Shown: positions 49,107 to 64,000, counted from the first letter of the stretch. The stretch: 64,000 nucleotides of DNA from Frischella japonica (GCF_014489845.1 NZ_JABURY010000010.1:124246-188245); one strand, 5' to 3'. The notes: generated by a model not told the origin, from the sequence alone. Numbers and translations are program-made.

Positions 49107-50843
49107 TTATATGCATAAATCAATCGGTTGATAAGTTTTAACATCAAATAGTCCATTTGAGGTGAGCTTTAATTCTGGTATGACGGGTAACGTCATAAAC
49201 ACCAATGTCATTAATGGATGGGCTTTAGGATTGATACCAAAGGAATGTTTAGCAACCTCAATCATATGATGCAGTTGATCAGCAACCTGTTGCGCCGGCT
49301 GATCAGACATCAGACCAGCAATAGGTAACGGTAAATGCGCCAGAATTTTACCGTCTTGGCATAATGAGAAACCGCCCCCCATCGCTTCAACATCTTTTAC
49401 GGCAACAAGCATATCAGCATCATTATCTCCCACTACGACTAGATTATGTGAATCATGGGCAACTGTGACAGCAATAGCACCATTTTTTAATCCGTAATTT
49501 GCTAAAATTCCTAGTCCCATATTACCCGTAGCATGATGTCGTTCAATCACTGCTAACTTATTCAATCCCGGATTGAGCTTACAATCAAAATGGTCATGAG
49601 CGTCTTTTTTGACATCAAGTTGTAAATGTGATGTTAGTACGCTACCTGGTTGAACACCAATCGCATTGACTTTTTCACTCGTCAAAGTCAATGTAAAATT
49701 TTGTTCGGTTAAAGTGGGCAAACGAACCGTATTGAGTACATTATCCGCTACATAATCATCCCATTGAACCAACAATTTACCGTCACGAGCAATCTCTTGG
49801 CCAGCAACAAAAACATGTTTCGGTTCAAAGGATTGCAAATCTTTTACAATCAGAAGATCGGCATCATAGTTTGGCGCAATAGCACCTTTACCTTTTAGCC
49901 GGTAACATTCAGCTGCATTTAAGGTGGCAAGTGTTATGGCTAATACTGGATCAAGTCCATGTTTCACCGCTAAGCGTAAACTTTTATTGATGTGTCCTGT
50001 AGTAAGGATATCGGCAGGTTCACGATCATCGGTACATAGTACACAACGACGAGCATTTGCTGGTGTAATTGCTGGAATAAGGTTAAGTAAATCTTTACAA
50101 GTTGATCCTTCACGTAATAATACATATTGACCCAACCGAATTCGTTCTAACATCTCTTTCTGGGTGCTGCATTCATGATCGGTCATAATGCCTGCCATAA
50201 CATAAGCAGTAAGTGCTTTACCGGTTACCCCAGGACTATGGCCATCAATGATGCGATCATGATCTTTAGCCATCCAAAGTTTATTCATCATTTTTGCTTC
50301 ATGATCAATTACACTGGGATAATCCATCACTTCCCCTAAACCTTTGACGCCTGGTTCATTGATTAACTGCACTAAATCTTCGGCTTCAAGCACACATCCC
50401 GCCTGTTCAAAAGGAGTAGCTGGCACGCAAGACGGTAACATAATTTGTACATTAAGCGGTGTTTTACGTGAAGCGTCAAGCATATAGCGTATACCATCTA
50501 ATCCAGAAACATTTGCTATTTCATGGGGATCGGCAATTATCGTAGTGGTGCCAAAAGGTAAAATACAACGGGCAAATTGTGTGGGGATTAATGATGATGA
50601 TTCGATATGGACATGACCATCAATTAAACCCGGCATCACATAACCCCCTTGGGCATCTATTGTTTGCTTGGCTTGATAGTCACACCCATAACCAACAATT
50701 TTACCATGACCAATAGCAAGTGGCCCGTCTACAATTAATTGATTAAAAACATCAATCACTTTACAGTTAGTAATCAATAGATCAACGACTTGACGGTTAG
50801 CCGCCATGTCAATTAAATCATTTAGTTGTTGTTTATCTGTCAT
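49107..50843 (-). CDS. ade: Adenine deaminase
   Basis: 578 aa (E. coli Ade/YicP 588), amidohydrolase superfamily with a C-terminal adenine-deaminase domain. It turns adenine into hypoxanthine and ammonia with a Fe/Mn metal centre. Family motifs are intact: DGHVHIESS (77-79 HxH), DPHEI (105-109), GEVMDYP (Glu171), DGHSPG (His202), DHE (222-224), CTDDR and HDSHN in the C-terminal part. Start at ATG 50843 after GAGG; a GTG 6 bases earlier is less likely. It is the last gene of a purine-salvage operon. Confidence 0.95.
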   Translation of the reverse strand: MTDKQQLNDLIDMAANRQVVDLLITNCKVIDVFNQLIVDGPLAIGHGKIVGYGCDYQAKQTIDAQGGYVMPGLIDGHVHIESSSLIPTQFARCILPFGTTTIIADPHEIANVSGLDGIRYMLDASRKTPLNVQIMLPSCVPATPFEQAGCVLEAEDLVQLINEPGVKGLGEVMDYPSVIDHEAKMMNKLWMAKDHDRIIDGHSPGVTGKALTAYVMAGIMTDHECSTQKEMLERIRLGQYVLLREGSTCKDLLNLIPAITPANARRCVLCTDDREPADILTTGHINKSLRLAVKHGLDPVLAITLATLNAAECYRLKGKGAIAPNYDADLLIVKDLQSFEPKHVFVAGQEIARDGKLLVQWDDYVADNVLNTVRLPTLTEQNFTLTLTSEKVNAIGVQPGSVLTSHLQLDVKKDAHDHFDCKLNPGLNKLAVIERHHATGNMGLGILANYGLKNGAIAVTVAHDSHNLVVVGDNDADMLVAVKDVEAMGGGFSLCQDGKILAHLPLPIAGLMSDQPAQQVADQLHHMIEVAKHSFGINPKAHPLMTLVFMTLPVIPELKLTSNGLFDVKTYQPIDLCI

Positions 50844-50931
50844 AAACACCTCATTTATTAGTCATCTGTAGCTTGCGATAATCATTATTCATTTAATTGA
50901 ACGATTTGCCTACTTTTAATCATATACTCGA

Positions 50932-52755
50932 TCAGTCGTGGCATTTCGTTTGTAATTTACCGTGGCTACAGCCACACTTAAATACCGGATCCATAACCGC
51001 TTGTTTATGAAAATCAATGACACCTAAATCTGTAATGGCATAGTCAGGAATTGCTGTGATTTGTAAACAACACATATAAAATAATGGATCAGGTAAGTCA
51101 CAACCTAACTCACGAGCAAGTAATAACAGTTTTTCCTCTTCTTGTGCCATTGTATGTGGATCGAGATCAGATACAATGCCACAAATTGGTAATGGTAAGA
51201 AACCAATAACTTTCCCTTGATTTACAATCACTTGGCCGCCACCGTGTTCAGCTAAATGGTTGATCGCTAATGCCATATCTTCAGAGTTAGTACCAATACA
51301 GACAACATTATTATCATCGGGGGCACAAGAACTTGCCATTGCACCAGATTTTAGTTTCCAGCCAGAGCAAAAACCAACTTTTGCAGTACCATCGGTTTTA
51401 CCAAAGCGTTCAACAACGGTGACATAGAGTACATCATTTTGTATATCAGGTAACACCACGCCATCTTGCACATTTAATTCCACCTGACGCGCACGACGAA
51501 CAAACGGAATGTTAAAATCAACATCTAACGATAAGGCCTTGACCTTGGTTTGTTTAATATTAGTAGTTACTTTAAGTGCTGAGGCCGTTACAGGTTTTAA
51601 TTTCATACTTTGTAATAACACCGCACTGCGTTTTGGTGGGACAAAGTTGAATACTGTTGCTTGATTTTCAACAACTAACTGACCTTTGGCAATAACGGTA
51701 TCAATATCAAATTTAACTAAATCAGAAACTAAAAGAATATCAGCAAAACGACCAGGAGAAACTGAACCAACTAAGTGATCAATACGATAAGCTTCAGCTG
51801 AATTGATGGATCCCATTTGTATAGCAGTTAAAGGATCGACACCTTTAGCAATTGCCATGCGAATTAATTTATCCATATGACCATTGGTCACAATATCGGA
51901 AGCAATAACATCATCGGTACAGAAACTGACGCGACGTGCTAATCTAGGGTTGAGATGCGTAATCACCTTAATGTTTTCAGCTAAAAAGTGGGAAATTGAT
52001 GATTCGCGAATTAACACATTCATTCCTTTACGGATTTTTTCCATCATTTCGGTATGATCATAACTTTCGTGATCTAATCGAACACCGGCACAAAGAATAG
52101 CATTAAGTTTATTTCCGCGGGTCATTGGCGCACAACCGTAAATAGGGAGACGATGTAACCGAGCATATTCAATTGCTTTCATCACATCGCTGTGTTGATT
52201 TTCAATAAATTCACTGACTGTTTCCCAAATCCCGAATACTTCCGGCCATTTTTGTACTTCGGCATGGGTTTTGGCTGTAACATTAAAACCGACATGACTT
52301 TGTGGTAATGTGTATGGCGTTAAGAATGGTAGACCCCAGAATACCTTTAATGGCGTACCGTCAATCTCGTGTAAAATTTCTCTAATGCCATCTAAGCCAG
52401 CAGTGACAATATATTGATCTAAACCAGAAATAATGCTGGTAGTGCCGTGTGGTAATACTGCTTTAGCAAAGCTAGTCATCGATAATTTACTGCATTCAAT
52501 ATGTAAATGACCATCAATTAGTCCTGGAACAATATATTTACCTTTAGCGTCAATTGTTTTGGTGTTTTCACCGATATAACTTGCTACATCTCCGGTTGCG
52601 ACAATACGTGATTTATAAATTGCTACATCAGCGGGGTAAATCTCACTAGAGTTTACATTGACTAATAGACCATTAGTAATAATTAAATCAGCAGGCAGCT
52701 TGGCTAATCCTGCATCAATCATTTCACAAATTGCTTCTTTATACATTGAAGTCAT
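50932..52755 (-). CDS. Adenine-deaminase-like amidohydrolase, altered active site
   Basis: 607 aa, paralogous to the next gene over its whole length, with HLHIE (83-87), CTDD and the C-terminal adenine-deaminase domain. Several key positions differ: DPHEI becomes GLDQY (111-115) and the His of DGHSPG becomes Cys208 (GCAP), while Glu178 and DHE (228-230) remain. A Cys-rich tail near the end (CGCSHG...KCHD) is absent from the canonical paralogue. The substrate or metal centre is probably different; it could be another purine or related amide. Start after AAGGA with an 8-base spacer. It lies in the same operon between the canonical deaminase and the purine permease. Confidence 0.85.
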   Translation of the reverse strand: MTSMYKEAICEMIDAGLAKLPADLIITNGLLVNVNSSEIYPADVAIYKSRIVATGDVASYIGENTKTIDAKGKYIVPGLIDGHLHIECSKLSMTSFAKAVLPHGTTSIISGLDQYIVTAGLDGIREILHEIDGTPLKVFWGLPFLTPYTLPQSHVGFNVTAKTHAEVQKWPEVFGIWETVSEFIENQHSDVMKAIEYARLHRLPIYGCAPMTRGNKLNAILCAGVRLDHESYDHTEMMEKIRKGMNVLIRESSISHFLAENIKVITHLNPRLARRVSFCTDDVIASDIVTNGHMDKLIRMAIAKGVDPLTAIQMGSINSAEAYRIDHLVGSVSPGRFADILLVSDLVKFDIDTVIAKGQLVVENQATVFNFVPPKRSAVLLQSMKLKPVTASALKVTTNIKQTKVKALSLDVDFNIPFVRRARQVELNVQDGVVLPDIQNDVLYVTVVERFGKTDGTAKVGFCSGWKLKSGAMASSCAPDDNNVVCIGTNSEDMALAINHLAEHGGGQVIVNQGKVIGFLPLPICGIVSDLDPHTMAQEEEKLLLLARELGCDLPDPLFYMCCLQITAIPDYAITDLGVIDFHKQAVMDPVFKCGCSHGKLQTKCHD

Positions 52756-55931: not shown

Positions 55932-58472
55932 TTGAATAATCAAAAAGAACAATTATGTAATATTATTCTGCCAAAAAATCAACCCATCTTAGATCGTTGT
56001 TTACCACTAAGTTTTCGGCAGTGTTTGCAACAAAACTTGGATAAACAATTAGCGATTTTAGAACAAAAAGTTGCAGACGAAATTGCCCTTAATAGCACGT
56101 ATCACTGTCAATATACCCATCAACAGCAGCGTTATCAAAAATTAAAAGCGATTAAACCCGGTGATCTTGATCAAGTATTTGCTTATCTAAACGGTCAGGC
56201 AATAATTCCGAAAATCGATTTAGGGAAAAACCAAAGCATTTTCGTTGATCATAATGATTTACTCTTACTTGCCTTGTATCAAGAATCATTGCAAAACTTA
56301 CCAGAATGCAATTTATGGCACTTATTGCGGGCATATTATCTTGAAAGATCTGAGCTAATTACCCAACACCTCGCTACTCTCTTTGAAAATGAGTTACTTA
56401 TTTGTCAAGCTGATTTAAGACAAGTTGCAACCATACTTAGTCAAATTACGGGTGATCATCAAGTAGTGTCATGGATAGCGAATGCCTTTTTGAGTTATTT
56501 TACTTTGCCGATGCTTCAACGTTATATTGTAGGTAGAGAAAATAAGGTTTGGCCTTTTTTTGCCGAAAATTTGCAATTTATTGATCAAGCATTGGGTTTG
56601 ACCAATGATACTAAAGGCTTCAAAGTCGCCAATGCACTCGCTATAGTTTCCCTGTTTCCTGAAGTTCCAGCTAAATATATTTCTCACCTTTTGGCGCTAG
56701 CATTAGGCACAAATCAAAATTTACGTGTGCAGGCTCAACTAATTCTGAATAAAATTGAAAATATCCATCTTGAGGTTGAAAAAGCCTTAATTGCTAGCAA
56801 ACAAGAAATACGGATTATTGCTATCAATTGGTTGGCATTGTTAGGAGCAACATCATCTGTTGAACGATTATATCAGGTGTTAGCGGTTGAAAAAAAAGCC
56901 TTAGTACAGGCAACAATTCTCAGTGCTTTGAATCAGCTTGGTCAAGATATTTCTTATTATCTATCACACGAATATTTATTGCAGGATGCACAAAAAGGTT
57001 TATTGGCCAAAAAACCGATTAGTATTGAGTGGTTAGATCCTAACATTTTACCTAATTTATTTTGGCAAAATGGTGACAGCGTAGCAGTAGAGATTCTTTA
57101 CTGGTGGATCGTTTCAGCGGTTAAATTAAAGCAACCAATGGGCAATGCATTAATTGATCTCTATTTAGGTTTATTGGATGCTAAAAGTCAAAAAAATATT
57201 GGTCAATTTATTTTGCAAATGTTTATACAGCAAGATATTAAAACAATTTCAGATTTGACTGATGAATATCAAAGTACAGTGATAGAAGCAAAAGGAGTTT
57301 TAGCACTTATTAAATATATAGATGCCTATCAAGCGGTGCAAATTGTACGCCCTTATCTTAAACAGTACACTAGCAGAAGGTCAGAGATATGTGCTATTTT
57401 GGAAGCTTTAGCTACCATTTATCATCCTGAAATTATTCAACTATTATTGTCGATTTCAGCCGGATATAGTTCAAATATTGTCCGTAAAAAAGCGGCAAAT
57501 TTGTTGGGGCAAATTGCAGATAATCGGGCTTGTTCAGTTCAAGAACTATCAGAACGAATGGTGCCAACGGCTAATTTGAATAGCAATGGGGAGATAATAC
57601 TTAATTATGGAGATCGTATTTTCAAAGCATTACTAGATGAAACGTTACAATTAATTGTCAAAAATGTTGATGGTAAAACTATAAAATCTTTACCAGCGGC
57701 AAACAAAAATGATAATGAGGAATACGTTAAAGCGTGTAAAAAATTGCTGACTAATAGTAAGAAGGCTTTAAAGTTAGTAATTGACAATCAAACACAACGT
57801 CTATATTCAATGATGTGCATAACAGAACAGTGGTCGTATACAGATTGGCATCATTATTTATATCAACATCCGATAATGAATCGATTAATACAACGTTTGG
57901 TCTGGCTGGAAATGGATCAAAATGGGCAACTTATTCATGCTTTTCGACCAACGGAAGAGGGTGCGTTCATCAATATTGATGATCAAGAAATTACGCTAAA
58001 CACCAATCATCAATTGCAGTTAGCCCATGGCATCCATTTGCCAGAACATGCGATATCAAGCTGGTTGATCCACTTTGAAGATTACAAAATCAAACCTTTA
58101 TTCAACCAGTTCGCACATCCAAAACCGAATATTAGCCATCAGGTTGAGAATAAAATCGCTGATTATTTTGGACAGAATATCGCTGTGATGACATTAAAAA
58201 ATCGGCTGCATAGCCGTGGATATCAGCCGATTACTGATTGGGATCGAATTGAAGGTTATAGTAAAAGTTTTCCAAAACTAGCGATACAAGCATGTATTAC
58301 AATAAGTAATTATTATCGTCAGATGAGCACAGCCAACGAAACCGTAAAGCTTTACCATTTGTACTTTAAACAACGTATTGGACTTATTGATAAAATTATG
58401 CATATTGAAAATGTGCCACCTATTATTTTAGCGGAATGTTATGGCGATTATCAATCATTGATAACTGTGTAA
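55932..58472 (+). CDS. DUF4132 protein, short paralogue (YehI/MolR-like)
   Basis: 846 aa, no signal peptide. The first 400 residues are helical HEAT-like repeats (VEKALIASKQEIRIIAINWLALLG). The DUF4132 core is roughly 545-770 ([73 protein letters not shown]). It corresponds to residues from about 355 onward of the larger DUF4132 gene downstream, but lacks its N-terminal third and about 45 residues of a charged insert. DUF4132 proteins accompany MoxR ATPases and act in proposed conflict or stress systems; the molecular role is unknown. A TTG start follows AAGGGA. Confidence 0.85.
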   Translation: MNNQKEQLCNIILPKNQPILDRCLPLSFRQCLQQNLDKQLAILEQKVADEIALNSTYHCQYTHQQQRYQKLKAIKPGDLDQVFAYLNGQAIIPKIDLGKNQSIFVDHNDLLLLALYQESLQNLPECNLWHLLRAYYLERSELITQHLATLFENELLICQADLRQVATILSQITGDHQVVSWIANAFLSYFTLPMLQRYIVGRENKVWPFFAENLQFIDQALGLTNDTKGFKVANALAIVSLFPEVPAKYISHLLALALGTNQNLRVQAQLILNKIENIHLEVEKALIASKQEIRIIAINWLALLGATSSVERLYQVLAVEKKALVQATILSALNQLGQDISYYLSHEYLLQDAQKGLLAKKPISIEWLDPNILPNLFWQNGDSVAVEILYWWIVSAVKLKQPMGNALIDLYLGLLDAKSQKNIGQFILQMFIQQDIKTISDLTDEYQSTVIEAKGVLALIKYIDAYQAVQIVRPYLKQYTSRRSEICAILEALATIYHPEIIQLLLSISAGYSSNIVRKKAANLLGQIADNRACSVQELSERMVPTANLNSNGEIILNYGDRIFKALLDETLQLIVKNVDGKTIKSLPAANKNDNEEYVKACKKLLTNSKKALKLVIDNQTQRLYSMMCITEQWSYTDWHHYLYQHPIMNRLIQRLVWLEMDQNGQLIHAFRPTEEGAFINIDDQEITLNTNHQLQLAHGIHLPEHAISSWLIHFEDYKIKPLFNQFAHPKPNISHQVENKIADYFGQNIAVMTLKNRLHSRGYQPITDWDRIEGYSKSFPKLAIQACITISNYYRQMSTANETVKLYHLYFKQRIGLIDKIMHIENVPPIILAECYGDYQSLITV

Positions 58473-58577
58473 TTATTTCAAAATTATCACTGACATTGTT
58501 AAGGCAGCAAAATAGCTGAGCTGCTAAATGTTATCGCTAAATAAATGAAACCAGCGTAGGAATAAATAGGCGTAAAA

Positions 58578-59597
58578 ATGAATAACTACATCCGAAATAT
58601 TTTGTGTTTTTTTATCTATTTGATGATTTCTTTTAATAGTTATGTAACAGGGATTGAAAAAACAACCTATTCAATAAGACGTGATATGCAACTTTTTTCA
58701 GTGGCTAAGATTGATTATCTTGCTCAAACTGATCCTTTTCTCTTTGTTTCTTTGTCGGATGTCATTCCTTATGGCGGTAATAATGAAAATATTCAATACA
58801 TACCAGAAAAAAATTTAGCCGACTCGCATCAATATCAATATAGTAAAAGGCAATATCTTATCACCAAACCATATCGCGCTAATCTTATGAAGGATCTTGG
58901 CTTATCAGAAAATGATCAGGTTTTTATCTACGATTATGCGCTGAATCGGTTAATTATGTTTAAAATAAGCGAACTTAAAGCATTAGCGGTGATTGATTTA
59001 CTTAGTTATCAGCAAAATGGTCCTTTTTATGGTTACCAATATATGCTTGGATTTGCCATTACACCACCAAAAGCCTTTGATCCTGCTACCACATTAGTCT
59101 ATTTCGGTAAACAAAATCCATTTGCGCAACAAAAATTGACACTGTTGAAATGGGAAAAAATTGATAATCAGCGATTTCCTAAAACGAATGACTTTGAAGT
59201 TGACTACTCCAAACCTATCAAATACTTATTAGATCGAATTACATTTTTAGCTAATGCAAATGGTTTACGTTATTTAGTACAATACTATCAAAATAGCCAG
59301 CGATTAATTATAGAAGATTCTAAGGCTAATATTATTGCTGATTTTATTCATGTTGTAGACGAAAATAATGATTTATGGTTTTTAAATGGTAACTACAATG
59401 GTATTTATTATACCAAACAATGGTCCGGTTATTTATTTGAAAATCAGTCGCTAGTCGTTTTTGGATTTGAGCGACCTTTATCGGGTTGTCCAACCATTAA
59501 TTTTATTAATCCATCTTATGATAGATTAGTAATAAATTGTGATTATCGCCACTTGCAACCTATGAAGGATCTGAAATTTAAAAAAACAGATCAATAA
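58578..59597 (+). CDS. Exported protein of unknown family inside the DUF4132 module
   Basis: 339 aa. An N-terminal hydrophobic stretch (about 7-24) looks like a signal peptide or anchor, so the rest should be periplasmic. The body is rich in Tyr, Asn and Gln with beta-strand-like spacing (VFIYDYALNRLIMF, GYQYMLGFAITPP, RYLVQYYQNSQRLIIED). Two Cys near the C-terminus (SGCPTINF and VINCDY, about 33 residues before the end and 10 after) could form a disulfide. No known family. It lies 105 bp after the short DUF4132 gene on the same strand. Confidence 0.75.
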   Translation: MNNYIRNILCFFIYLMISFNSYVTGIEKTTYSIRRDMQLFSVAKIDYLAQTDPFLFVSLSDVIPYGGNNENIQYIPEKNLADSHQYQYSKRQYLITKPYRANLMKDLGLSENDQVFIYDYALNRLIMFKISELKALAVIDLLSYQQNGPFYGYQYMLGFAITPPKAFDPATTLVYFGKQNPFAQQKLTLLKWEKIDNQRFPKTNDFEVDYSKPIKYLLDRITFLANANGLRYLVQYYQNSQRLIIEDSKANIIADFIHVVDENNDLWFLNGNYNGIYYTKQWSGYLFENQSLVVFGFERPLSGCPTINFINPSYDRLVINCDYRHLQPMKDLKFKKTDQ

Positions 59598-59688
59598 AAA
59601 GGATTTCAAAATCATAAAATTTCAGTTCATCGAGTAAACAATATATATTTCTAAAAAATATAATTTTTAGTAAATTTATTTTTAATAA

Positions 59689-59754
59689 GGACAAACAATA
59701 CCCACAGAACCGTGAGCAGAAGGTTATGCTGAATATATGGCAATGTTAGTGTAA
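59689..59754 (+). pseudogene. Remnant of a DUF4132 C-terminus
   Basis: One frame reads GQTIPTEP, a stop, then AEGYAEYMAMLV, stop. It aligns with the C-terminal [18 protein letters not shown] of the large DUF4132 protein (IP....AEGYA.Y.A shared; about 26 of 33 bases match over the AEGYA segment, at 63528-63560). It is too short to be a gene. It is either a decayed third copy or a trace of a recombination event. Confidence 0.5.
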
Positions 59755-59883
59755 TGAGTTGCAATGATTCAGAATGGTAATAAAAACGATTTAGATGAAA
59801 TAGTGCAAGTTTAAATTATTGCCATCAAAGATAAAATTACAATCATCAATACTTGAAATATTAAAATAAGATTGGAGAAAGGG

Positions 59884-62800
59884 ATGTTTAAAACGTTAAA
59901 AAGTAAAATTTTGAATAATAATTCTAAAGAAGGGCAATTATTATTAGACATATTTGAACCATTGGATTCATTAGAAAAAAATATATCAAAGCAAATTACA
60001 AATTTTATTTTAAAAGGGGATGATATCGAGGTACTAAACCGTGTATATCAATTAGCAAGTAATCAACCCTTACATCAATTATTGGCCTATCCATGTAGCT
60101 CTGATAGGTATTATCTTGATAGAGATCTAAAGAAAAATGTTAAAGCCAGAATAAGATTCTATAAGGACTGGACCAATGTTTATTCATTGCAGCAAATTAC
60201 GCGTTTTGGTAAAGTTTTAGCCGCTACCGATAGACCTGATAATCATATTAATGTTATCACACCAAAGCTACCATTATGGTTTCTATATTTGTTATTAGAT
60301 GGATTGGTTACCACCCTCCCTAGGGGGGATATGGTGACAATTTTAGCTACTGAACGTAAAGCTTGGTCAATTAGTCAATTACATGATCTGCTTGAATTAG
60401 AAGAAGCGGGTTTGGGGCAAAAATTGCTATTTGCGATTTTTGATCGTCAAAACATCAAAGAATATTACCTCAGTGATTTTAAACATTTTTATCATTTTCA
60501 AGATTTATTACCTTATATAAACAAACATCTGGATATATTTAAATCTTTACCGGAGCAAGGTCTTTCGCTGTCAGGGGAAATAGAACAATTAAACTATATC
60601 GCCTGTCATCCAGAGCTATCTGTATTGACAATCGATTTGCTAGCTGAGCAATCAGTCAGCGAATTAAAGCGAATTAATGAAGTAGCAGCGACAATTTTAG
60701 TTAGTTCTCCGCAAGAAAGAGTACTAACCGAATTACAAACCATCTTAACCCAAGGGACTGCTAAGCAGCGTAGTAGGGCAGTAACCATACTGGCCAGATT
60801 ATCTGCTGATCGAGAAATTTTTGACAATGCTCTACAGAAAGAAACCAATAAAACGGTAATTAAAGCACTGGAAAAGGCACTGTCGGCGCTAGAAAGTACT
60901 CAACAAGCTAAATTGCATGAGCTGGAATTAATTATTCCGCCTTACCAAACTATTACTGAAGTTGCATTGCCAGCTAGTGCACGAGAAATCATAAAGCAGA
61001 ATTTTGTTGAACAGTTGGCAAAATGTGAGCAAAACGTGCTATATGAAATCGAAATGAATAAAAAAAATAACAGTAATTATCGCTATCAGCAATCTCATTT
61101 TGCCGAACTAAAAAAAGTCACTGAAACTAATCTCGATTCAATTTTTGATTATATCAATGGTAAGACAGAATTGTCGCAAAGTTTACTAAAAAAGAAAATC
61201 GATGAGAATTTCGACTTTATTTTAATAAAAGGTCGCTTACAAGCATTACCTGAATTTAACCTGTTTCACTTACTACGGATTCATAAACTTTATTCTTCTG
61301 GAACATCACTTTATTCTTTATTTACACTATTTGAAGAAAATACATTATTGTTACAGAGTGATTTACGACAAATTGTCGATGTGTTAAATAAAATAGGTTA
61401 TTGTTCTGATGCAAGTCGCTCTGTAGCGTACCTTTTTTTGGCTAATTCTTATTTTAATCTTACTTGGCACGTTGATTCGCATTATATTTGGCCATTTTTC
61501 GCAGAAAATTTAGTGTATATAGATGAGAGCTTGGGATTATTACCCCCACACGTTGATCAAGACTATGATAGTATTTGTTTAGATAAAGCTAATGCAATTG
61601 AAATTTTAAGTTTTTTCCCTAATATTCCAGCAAAATATGTTAGTTATTTACTCGAAATTGCTTTTGGCGATAATAAATCATTGCGAGTTTTAGCGCAAAA
61701 GGCTTTGGGTTCTTTACCAGACATTCATTATCGAGCAGAAGAAGCACTTTTATCCGCTAAACAGGATGTGCGAATTAATGCTGCACAATGGCTTGCCAAG
61801 CTCGGTCAAACTTCCTCGATTAAACCCCTTAAAGAGGCATTAAAAAAAGAAAAACGTGAAACCGTTCAAGCGGTCTTTCTAGTTGTGCTTGAAGATTTAG
61901 GAGAAGACATTAGCCAACATTTAACGAGTAAAAAATTATTAGATGATGCTCGTAAAGGATTAAAAGGTAAAAAACCTGCCGACTTAGAGTGGTTCGATGA
62001 AACACAATTACCGCCATTAACTTGGAAAACGGGGGAGACGGTAGAACCAGAAATTATTAAATGGTGGATATGGTTAGCTGTGAAATTAAAAGAGCCAGCT
62101 AACCCCTTATTATTCATATACACTCGCCTTTTGAGTCCACAAAGCCAACATCACCTGGGACTATTTGTGTTACAGTCTTTTATCCATAAAGATACCCTAG
62201 CACCGACCATACAAGAGGCAGAAAGAGAAGCCAAACGAGGTGCGTTACGGCGTCAACAAGATTATTTAAACTACGCTAAACGTTATCCCGAATACTATGG
62301 ACAATATGCAAATATGACACTGGAAGATGCTTTCGAGATGATCAAGAAGGAAGAGCTTGCACGATTAATTGGGTCAGCTATTAAATTTAAAGGTTTACTC
62401 GCTTTAACCAGTGGCATTGAAGGTTCTTCCGTCGTGCCGATTTTGTATAACTACATGAAAGTGTTTTATAAACGACGTGCGCAAATTGAGGCAATGTTGG
62501 AATCGATAGCGAACAGCGATGACCCTCTCATCATACAGTTATTATTGTCAATTGCGCGTCGTTATCGAACCTCTTCTATACAAGAAAAAGCGAAATTATT
62601 GGTTAATAATATTGCTGAACGCAATCACTGGACACCTGATGAGCTGGCTGATCGAACGATTTCGACGGCTGGTTTAGATGAATCAGGCATACTTCATTTA
62701 GATTACGGTGAACGTGAATTCACGGCTATTTTAGATCACAATTTTAAATGGATCTTAAAAAATCCCGAAGGTAAAGTGATTAAAGCCTTACCAGAAGGAC

Positions 62801-63612
62801 GTAAAACTGAAGATGAAGAATTAGTGAAAGAAGCGAAAAAACAGTTTAGTAATAGCAAAAAAGAAGTTAAACAAATTCTTGATTTACAGATATCACGCCT
62901 ATATGAAGCTATGTGTATCCAGCGCTATTGGACAATAGCGGATTGGCAAAAATATTTACAAGGTCATCCGATCATGAACCGCTTAATTCAGCGTCTTGTT
63001 TGGTTAGTGATTGATCAGCAAGGTAATATTTGTCAAAGTTTCCGACCAACCGAAGATGGCAGCTTGATTGATTTCGAAGATGATGAGTTAACGCTGAACG
63101 AAGACTGTAAAATCATACTGGCTCATGGCGCACTATTGACTCAAGAAATGGTTGAAAAATGGCAAACCCACTTCAAAGATTACAAAATTAAATCACTGTT
63201 TACTCAATTTGATCATCCTTTACCTGATCTCTCAGCGGTGAAAGATGGGATCATTAATGACTATAAAGGCTGGGTAACCGATACCTTTACCTTACGCGGT
63301 ATTTTAACTAAATTAGGGTATAAACGTGATGATATCGGAGATGCTGGAAGTTTTGATGGTTATTATAAATATTTTAGTGGTAGTGAATTATATATTAATA
63401 TTCAATTTAGTGGTAGTTATGTTCCTGAAGATAATATTCCTGCCGTGCTATATAGTCTGTACTTTAGTAAACAACATGGTTGGAATGATAAAGCAATTGA
63501 TATCAATGAAATACCGCCGGTGCTATTAGCTGAAGGTTATGCGGATTATACGGCAGTAGCCAATGCATCAAGTGGCTATGATCCTGAGTGGGAGAAGAAA
63601 GCATTATGGTAA
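59884..63612 (+). CDS. DUF4132 protein, large paralogue (YehI/MolR-like)
   Basis: 1242 aa from the chosen ATG. An N-terminal region of about 350 residues, absent from the short paralogue, is helical with a HEAT-like block ([26 protein letters not shown]). A second half collinear with the 846-aa protein follows: HEAT repeats ([24 protein letters not shown]), a charged insert rich in Arg/Glu/Tyr (about 780-845), and DUF4132 ([75 protein letters not shown]). E. coli YehI is a similar-sized relative, but I see no WGR domain. Start at 59884 because GGAGAAAGGG precedes it; a TTG 12 bases earlier also reads through. It overlaps the AAA+ gene by 7 bp. Confidence 0.88.
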
Positions 63613-64000
63613 AAGTAACACAAGCAATTCGGTTAAGTGCTGAAGAACGTTATCGTGAAGAATTAAATCGATTAACCCAAATTGATAGCCAAAATAATAA
63701 GCCAGAAGGCTGGTTATTATCGCCGAAATCGGTACGGCAGTTTATATTAGGTGATGAAAATTTAGCTGTAAGCCGTAAATTTTTTGGTGATGATCCGTTG
63801 GTTGATAGGGCGATAGTTTCTCTACTTGGTAAGCAAGGCTTAATGCTCGTTGGGCAACCCGGCACAGCTAAATCGATGTTATCAGAATTGTTAGCGGCGG
63901 CGATAAGTGGTGACTCAAATCTAACTATTCAAGGTACGGCTGGTACAAGCGAAGATCATATTCGTTATTCATGGAATTATGCATTATTACTGGCTGAAGG
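63606..64000 (+). CDS. MoxR-type AAA+ ATPase (YehL-like), N-terminal part
   Basis: The frame stays open to the window end, giving 131 residues. Opening [20 protein letters not shown], then [12 protein letters not shown], the segment [19 protein letters not shown], Walker [11 protein letters not shown] (near 93-102) and [17 protein letters not shown], as in E. coli YehL and other MoxR-family ATPases that act with VWA and DUF4132 partners. It starts within the last codons of the DUF4132 gene (7 bp overlap), so translation is coupled. Walker B and the sensor motifs fall outside the window. Confidence 0.88.

Follow-up and report, generated by a model that had tools for sequence, protein, structure and literature searches.

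Why should a gene for a MoxR-type AAA+ ATPase be preceded by two large, related genes of the DUF4132 family, with a gene for an exported protein (EXP) between them? This arrangement lies at the end of the window, a 64,000-nucleotide stretch of the Frischella japonica genome (C2:124246-188245; genome 2.66 Mb), which an earlier note had described as a MoxR/DUF4132 module of a type proposed to work in conflict or defence. Our answer, plausible if a little short of probable, is that the cluster is an operon of the YehL subfamily of MoxR, in which a constant core is combined with interchangeable HEAT-solenoid DUF4132 proteins as recognition or adaptor subunits, probably for conflict or defence. It draws on features read from sequence: gene content and order, copy-number expansion of DUF4132, swapping of its N-terminal part, gain and loss of the module at one chromosomal site, and a TraB-like similarity that exceeds its controls.

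Open reading frame (ORF) calling and hidden Markov model matches confirm that two paralogous DUF4132/HEAT proteins, an exported protein and a MoxR ATPase are encoded on one strand, with an overlap at the 3' end (Table 1). The MoxR ORF as called overlaps DUF4132-long by 25 bp, or by 7 bp if translation starts at an ATG 18 bases downstream. Beyond position 64000, the extended contig continues on the same strand through MoxR, DUF5682, VWA and SWIM genes, with overlaps or gaps of at most 10 bp from MoxR to SWIM, followed by cspE and then unrelated genes. The VWA and SWIM genes anticipated in the earlier note are present, with DUF5682 in addition. The MoxR protein matches AAA_5 (115 bits) and is 49% identical to Escherichia coli YehL over 346 residues, YehL being one of seven recognised MoxR subfamilies (PMC3893208); the bpMoxR model scores 25.3 on it, under the cut-off of 27. 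The VWA protein gives VWA-type matches only, with no effector or superstructure domain fused to it. The SWIM protein matches the Pfam SWIM model weakly (13.1 against a cut-off of 19.6) and matches YehQ at 8e-8. Its gene overlaps a preceding one (L003:14657-17178) whose 136-residue product is 47% identical to the N-terminus of the 708-residue SWIM protein; the SWIM gene too was evidently duplicated and truncated in the window's cluster, a feature that distinguishes it from the E. coli counterpart.

That counterpart is the yeh cluster. In E. coli K-12, the genes run yehF-yehH (a frameshifted DUF4132 gene), yehI (DUF4132), yehK, yehL (MoxR), yehM (DUF5682), yehP (VWA) and yehQ (SWIM), while another strain has an intact first DUF4132 gene, which encodes a WGR-DUF4132 fusion. 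The same families occur in the same order in the window, which bears out its assignment to a yeh-type cluster; protein identity is 39% for VWA and 26% for DUF5682, and no DNA-level match to E. coli was found. The two differ in that E. coli has a WGR domain fused to the first DUF4132 protein, yehK in the gap, and no EXP in the cluster. Both carry two tandem DUF4132 genes, and tandem duplication therefore belongs to the usual picture of the cluster rather than standing outside it, as had been supposed. Two DUF4132 genes are also found in one further species sampled from the order, and full-length copies number one to eight in Orbaceae, the window's family, compared with at most two DUF4132 genes in the E. 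coli strains examined.

The association of these families extends across the order. In Orbaceae, sampled mostly as Gilliamella, the sister genus of the window's genus, DUF4132 is found in 16 of 44 genomes and DUF5682 in 13, all 13 of which also carry DUF4132. Outside the family, DUF4132 occurs in 15 of 362 sampled genomes and its co-occurrence with DUF5682 has P = 2e-8; the value is ∼1e-8 both within and outside the family. Each of the seven loci sampled outside the family combines DUF4132, MoxR, DUF5682 and SWIM genes, and six have a recognisable VWA gene as well. The earlier note had allowed for unrelated housekeeping genes downstream or for a lack of conserved co-occurrence; neither was found for the core. 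Two further observations concern this sample. One genome (G069) has four full DUF4132 matches and one sub-threshold match, which are dispersed over contigs C22, C42, C43, C53 and C59 and not tandem. Four others (G304, G339, G355, G363) have DUF5682 genes without DUF4132, some in frames of 1000-1300 residues that suggest fused forms.

In Gilliamella, each module has a single MoxR, DUF5682, VWA and SWIM gene, accompanied by one to eight full-length DUF4132 genes as well as truncated copies and fragments; in one genome, eight full-length copies stand in tandem. Copies within one genome are 45-84% identical, with the least variation in the C-terminal half and the most at residues 51-100 and 401-500. 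Comparison of two genomes, G015 and G036, locates a breakpoint. Identity is 99.5% for their MoxR and VWA proteins and 98% for their DUF5682 proteins, whereas the DNA of the MoxR-adjacent DUF4132 gene shares 67% identity up to residue ∼314 and 99% beyond it (maximum chi-square 868, against a best of 17 in 500 permutations). The N-terminal part of the G015 gene is, at the DNA level, 94% identical to a copy in a third genome, G002, whose N-terminus is thus donor-like. Recombination evidently occurs in the DUF4132 arrays, copies exchanging their N-terminal third at residue ∼310-330.

The swapped part is approximately the region missing from the shorter of the window's two DUF4132 proteins. Both score far above the PF13569 cut-off of 27 bits, and HEAT repeats are also matched in both, more weakly than the DUF4132 domain. 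DUF4132-short lacks the N-terminal ∼350 residues of DUF4132-long, the alignment running from residue 353 on, and the two, being 40% identical over 894 aligned columns, are old paralogues. In a phylogenetic tree, DUF4132-short clusters with the short copies of two Gilliamella genomes in one clade (support 1.0), which marks the short form as a paralogue of long standing. Two DUF4132 genes and one remnant stand directly upstream of the window's MoxR gene: by translated alignment, the gap between EXP and DUF4132-long (59598-59871) holds the decayed C-terminal end of a third copy, whose translation (...AEGYAEYMAM) is in register with DUF4132 residues ∼1188-1221 and contains stops. For DUF4132-long itself, ATG 59884 is the more likely start than TTG 59872, because GGAGAAAGGG directly precedes ATG 59884. 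Its predicted structure is a helical solenoid and its profile matches alphaRep HEAT repeats; comparison of the model returned only general HEAT solenoids with low TM-scores, and model confidence is poor after residue 1015.

Such arrays could also be explained by a general proteostasis or stress AAA+ module in which neutral tandem amplification and gene conversion have multiplied DUF4132 without functional diversification. We regard this as unlikely. Recombination between tandem copies is the default, the arrays contain many fragments and frameshifted or truncated copies, and purifying selection acts throughout, all of which favors it. However, copies remain full-length at 45-84% identity within a genome, their variation is concentrated in defined patches, and the short paralogue has been retained in two genera.

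The location of the module may also bear on its function. In Gilliamella it is flanked by nfo and a yccS-like gene, or follows downstream of nfo, the yccS-like gene being farther on. Elsewhere these flanks adjoin directly (seven genomes), or enclose SWIM fragments (one genome), an orphan DUF4132 gene (one genome) or EXP genes only; the module has evidently been gained and lost at this single chromosomal site. Its neighbors there include type I-F cas1-cas3 (G006), a 1550-residue protein with weak nSTAND similarity (G002, G015, G036) and a PLD/NgoFVII-like nuclease (G008, G018, G025), with members tested as representatives of each group. The 1550-residue protein (L046:2303-6952 and relatives) also gives a weak match to the candidate defence family PDC-M54A, and its N-terminus is nuclease-like by eye. 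Multiplied, recombining DUF4132 arrays at a site shared with phage-defence genes suggest a threat-sensing machine with interchangeable sensors.

Several points weigh against this interpretation. Because related species share neighbors, the defence neighbors amount to about three independent cases. Gene conversion is expected in any tandem array, and close DUF4132 orthologues are under purifying selection (dN/dS 0.15-0.53), with no clear sign of positive selection among them. PADLOC has no model for the core genes and returned only a weak HEAT-ARM match. Although the Gilliamella module occupies an island with known defence genes, none flanks the cluster in the window's own genome, and in E. coli the cluster is near-core: yehL is present in 5171 of 5426 complete genomes (∼95%), a distribution far less patchy than that of a typical defence island. 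A natural disruption is known from E. coli ST131 sublineage L1a, in which the resistance transposon TnMB1860 is inserted in the metG/DUF4132 region (PMC9334617). Nothing weighs more heavily against a purely defensive role than the cluster's near-universal presence in E. coli.

Such a distribution would suit a physiological role, as proposed by the main rival explanation, a chaperone that inserts cofactors or matures enzymes in the manner of CoxD/CoxE, NorQ/NorD or RavA-ViaA. DUF4132 (MolR/YehI) would then be a client adaptor, for example in molybdate metabolism, and extra copies would serve extra client enzymes. The RavA-ViaA and CoxD-CoxE chaperone pairs resemble the window's cluster in combining MoxR with a CoxE-type VWA protein, but belong to other MoxR subfamilies and are not known to have DUF4132, DUF5682 or SWIM partners. 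The CoxE-family match of the window's VWA protein (Table 1), the role of characterised MoxR proteins in maturing protein complexes, including CoxD for the Mo-Cu centre (PMC3893208), and a reported link of MolR/DUF4132 to molybdate metabolism (PMC8533742) all fit a chaperone. We nevertheless consider it rather unlikely: the window has no molybdo- or other metallo-enzyme gene next to the module, and none was recognised among those Gilliamella loci that were examined; the module is patchy in Gilliamella at an island site with defence genes; and in Deinococcus, depletion of DdrO elicits a response from a DUF4132 gene but not from the named molybdate genes moeA and moeB (PMC8533742).

Among conflict systems, the VMAP/MoxR-vWA ternary systems (Kaur et al. 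2020, PMC7159879) likewise join a MoxR-type ATPase, a VWA protein and variable partners, and superstructure-forming repeats such as HEAT are common in them. The window's module differs in having no VMAP-type domain and no effector fused to its VWA protein; no VMAP family is among the Pfam matches of any module protein, although a diverged VMAP could escape Pfam. The text of that survey does not mention DUF4132, DUF5682, YehL or SWIM, and a conflict role for the yeh-type cluster is therefore an extrapolation: the earlier note overstated it, while the hotspot data raise its plausibility. The antigen-sensor ternary systems diversified by diversity-generating retroelements (PMC10907252) offer another likeness, a MoxR-linked large protein as the proposed diversified sensor. 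Unlike in those systems, DUF4132 diversity here comes from tandem copies and recombination, and the module proteins showed no recognisable reverse transcriptase or C-type lectin domain. In the open-access PMC literature searched, we found neither a functional study of the yehI-yehQ cluster nor a source placing a yeh-type cluster in defence, and did not find the extreme recombining DUF4132 arrays, the shared island site or the TraB-like similarity, which appear new in this respect; the cluster itself is known.

A candidate effector is found in DUF5682. In its N-terminus, H36-H37, E60, R233-E234 and G258-G-x-H261 are invariant in ten diverse members. Aligned with a TraB-family profile, at least one row of which is a mis-picked ORF, this region gives an hhalign score of 48 (probability 77%), compared with a maximum of 19 in 40 column-shuffled controls. 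A smaller profile test gave a score of 30, against a maximum of 19 over 60 shuffles and 15 for a reversed control. Comparison with a single protein, YbaP, was negative, and comparison with PDB sequences returned nothing meaningful. The motif pattern, set against the conserved H, E, R(E/N)xxM and GxxH motifs of TraB/TIKI-type putative metallopeptidases, appears to resemble theirs; motifs and profile scores together provide moderate evidence for a hydrolase-type effector.

For a defence or conflict machine of this composition, we infer complex formation, sensing and effector activity as follows. The constant core would comprise a MoxR ATPase, a CoxE-type VWA protein, a DUF5682 protein and a SWIM zinc-finger protein, one of each. 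A DUF4132 protein would bind a client, or a ligand derived from an invader, chiefly by means of its variable N-terminal third and the patch at residues 400-500, and its conserved C-terminal half would dock on the core. ATP-dependent remodeling of the complex by the MoxR-VWA pair would release or activate the effector, for which the TraB/TIKI-like hydrolase domain of DUF5682 is the likeliest candidate. The SWIM protein is a possible nucleic-acid binder, and tandem DUF4132 copies would widen the range of ligands. A more specific proposal, possible but on balance doubtful, is that one catalytic core is served by a private library of HEAT-solenoid sensors, whose N-terminal modules are exchanged between tandem copies and across species for a cassette-like change of specificity, with a TraB/TIKI-like hydrolase as the effector of this MoxR-VWA machine.

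EXP probably has no place in such a machine. Its N-terminal hydrophobic segment resembles a signal peptide, and it has no family match in Pfam, NCBIfam or PADLOC and no match among PDB sequences; its identity to exported proteins from Gilliamella and Bacteroidota is 19-38%. Its positions, between the two DUF4132 genes of the window and immediately before DUF4132 genes or remnants in G002, G004, G006, G015 and G034, would fit a true periplasmic component, sensor or effector, of the MoxR/DUF4132 machine. We consider this highly improbable. Across 33 sampled genomes of the family, EXP homologues occur in 15, nine of which lack the module, and four of the ten module genomes lack EXP, so that the association is not significant (P = 0.23; Fisher 0.45). 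EXP also stands alone in arrays of up to five copies at the nfo-yccS site, its relatives in Bacteroidota stand alone among unrelated genes (a candidate association with the module there was rejected on this account), and the intergenic gaps around it (105 and 274 bp) are wider than those of the coupled core. Comparison across relatives thus upholds the core of the module described in the earlier note, which co-occurs and is patchy at nfo-yccS in Gilliamella, but not EXP, which is probably a separate passenger.

Structural comparison of EXP yields only a lead. Its AlphaFold model (pLDDT 83) found nothing significant in Foldseek (best E 0.046). A second structure aligner placed three chains of Tsi1, a type VI secretion system immunity protein, first (Z 7.2, 3.1 A over 94 residues), best Z values of 7-8 being common without kinship. 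Orphan periplasmic immunity genes in arrays would fit. At nfo-yccS in two genomes (L188 and L189 in G016, L192 in G015), up to five EXP-like genes, possibly orphan immunity genes, are interleaved with an A2M-like gene of 2000 residues and a gene of 785 residues.

Table 1. Features of the MoxR/DUF4132 cluster, numbered from the first nucleotide of the window; positions beyond 64000 are window-equivalent positions on the extended contig.
Feature	Position	Strand	Properties
DUF4132-short	55932-58472	+	846 aa; HEAT-type solenoid and DUF4132; PF13569 116 bits
EXP, exported protein without known family	58578-59597	+	339 aa; AlphaFold pLDDT 83
Decayed C-terminal end of third DUF4132 copy	59640-59745	+	In-frame stops; E = 0.055
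DUF4132-long	59872-63612	+	1246 aa; solenoid ∼1-930, DUF4132 967-1150; PF13569 123 bits
MoxR AAA+ ATPase, YehL subfamily	63588-64000, complete to 64703	+	371 aa
DUF5682	64710-67256	+	848 aa; PF18934 315 bits
VWA, CoxE-type	67266-68435	+	389 aa; PF05762 166 bits
SWIM N-terminal copy	68411-68821	+	136 aa
SWIM	68806-70932	+	708 aa; CxCx(n)CxH motif intact

The window's cluster is placed between ypfJ and cspE, a locus other than the Gilliamella nfo-yccS site. Composition gives no clear sign of foreign origin (GC content 31-39% in the module, 34.5% in the rest of the window), and no tRNA gene stands beside the module. The only relative sampled in the window's genus, G001, lacks the module; its ypfJ neighborhood is not syntenic, and the empty-site comparison set no boundary. 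Control by LexA and the SOS response was considered and rejected, since the window's genes and most Gilliamella modules have no LexA-like box upstream. Sites with one mismatch occur in three species (E. coli, Proteus and a further one), and two Gilliamella loci have weak sites. Carriage by phages or plasmids was likewise rejected, as matches in the plasmid collection were limited to Proteus records of chromosome size and a short one in Iodobacter. Elsewhere in the window (49107-52755), two adjoining adenine-deaminase-like genes (580 and 607 residues) and a permease-like gene are transcribed away from the module.

Natural arrays in which as many as eight DUF4132 genes recombine next to a single core suggest that specificity resides in DUF4132. 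If the reading proposed above is true, the near-core E. coli cluster, present in ∼95% of complete genomes, would belong to bacterial immunity, and the bee-gut symbionts would have a new route of diversification.

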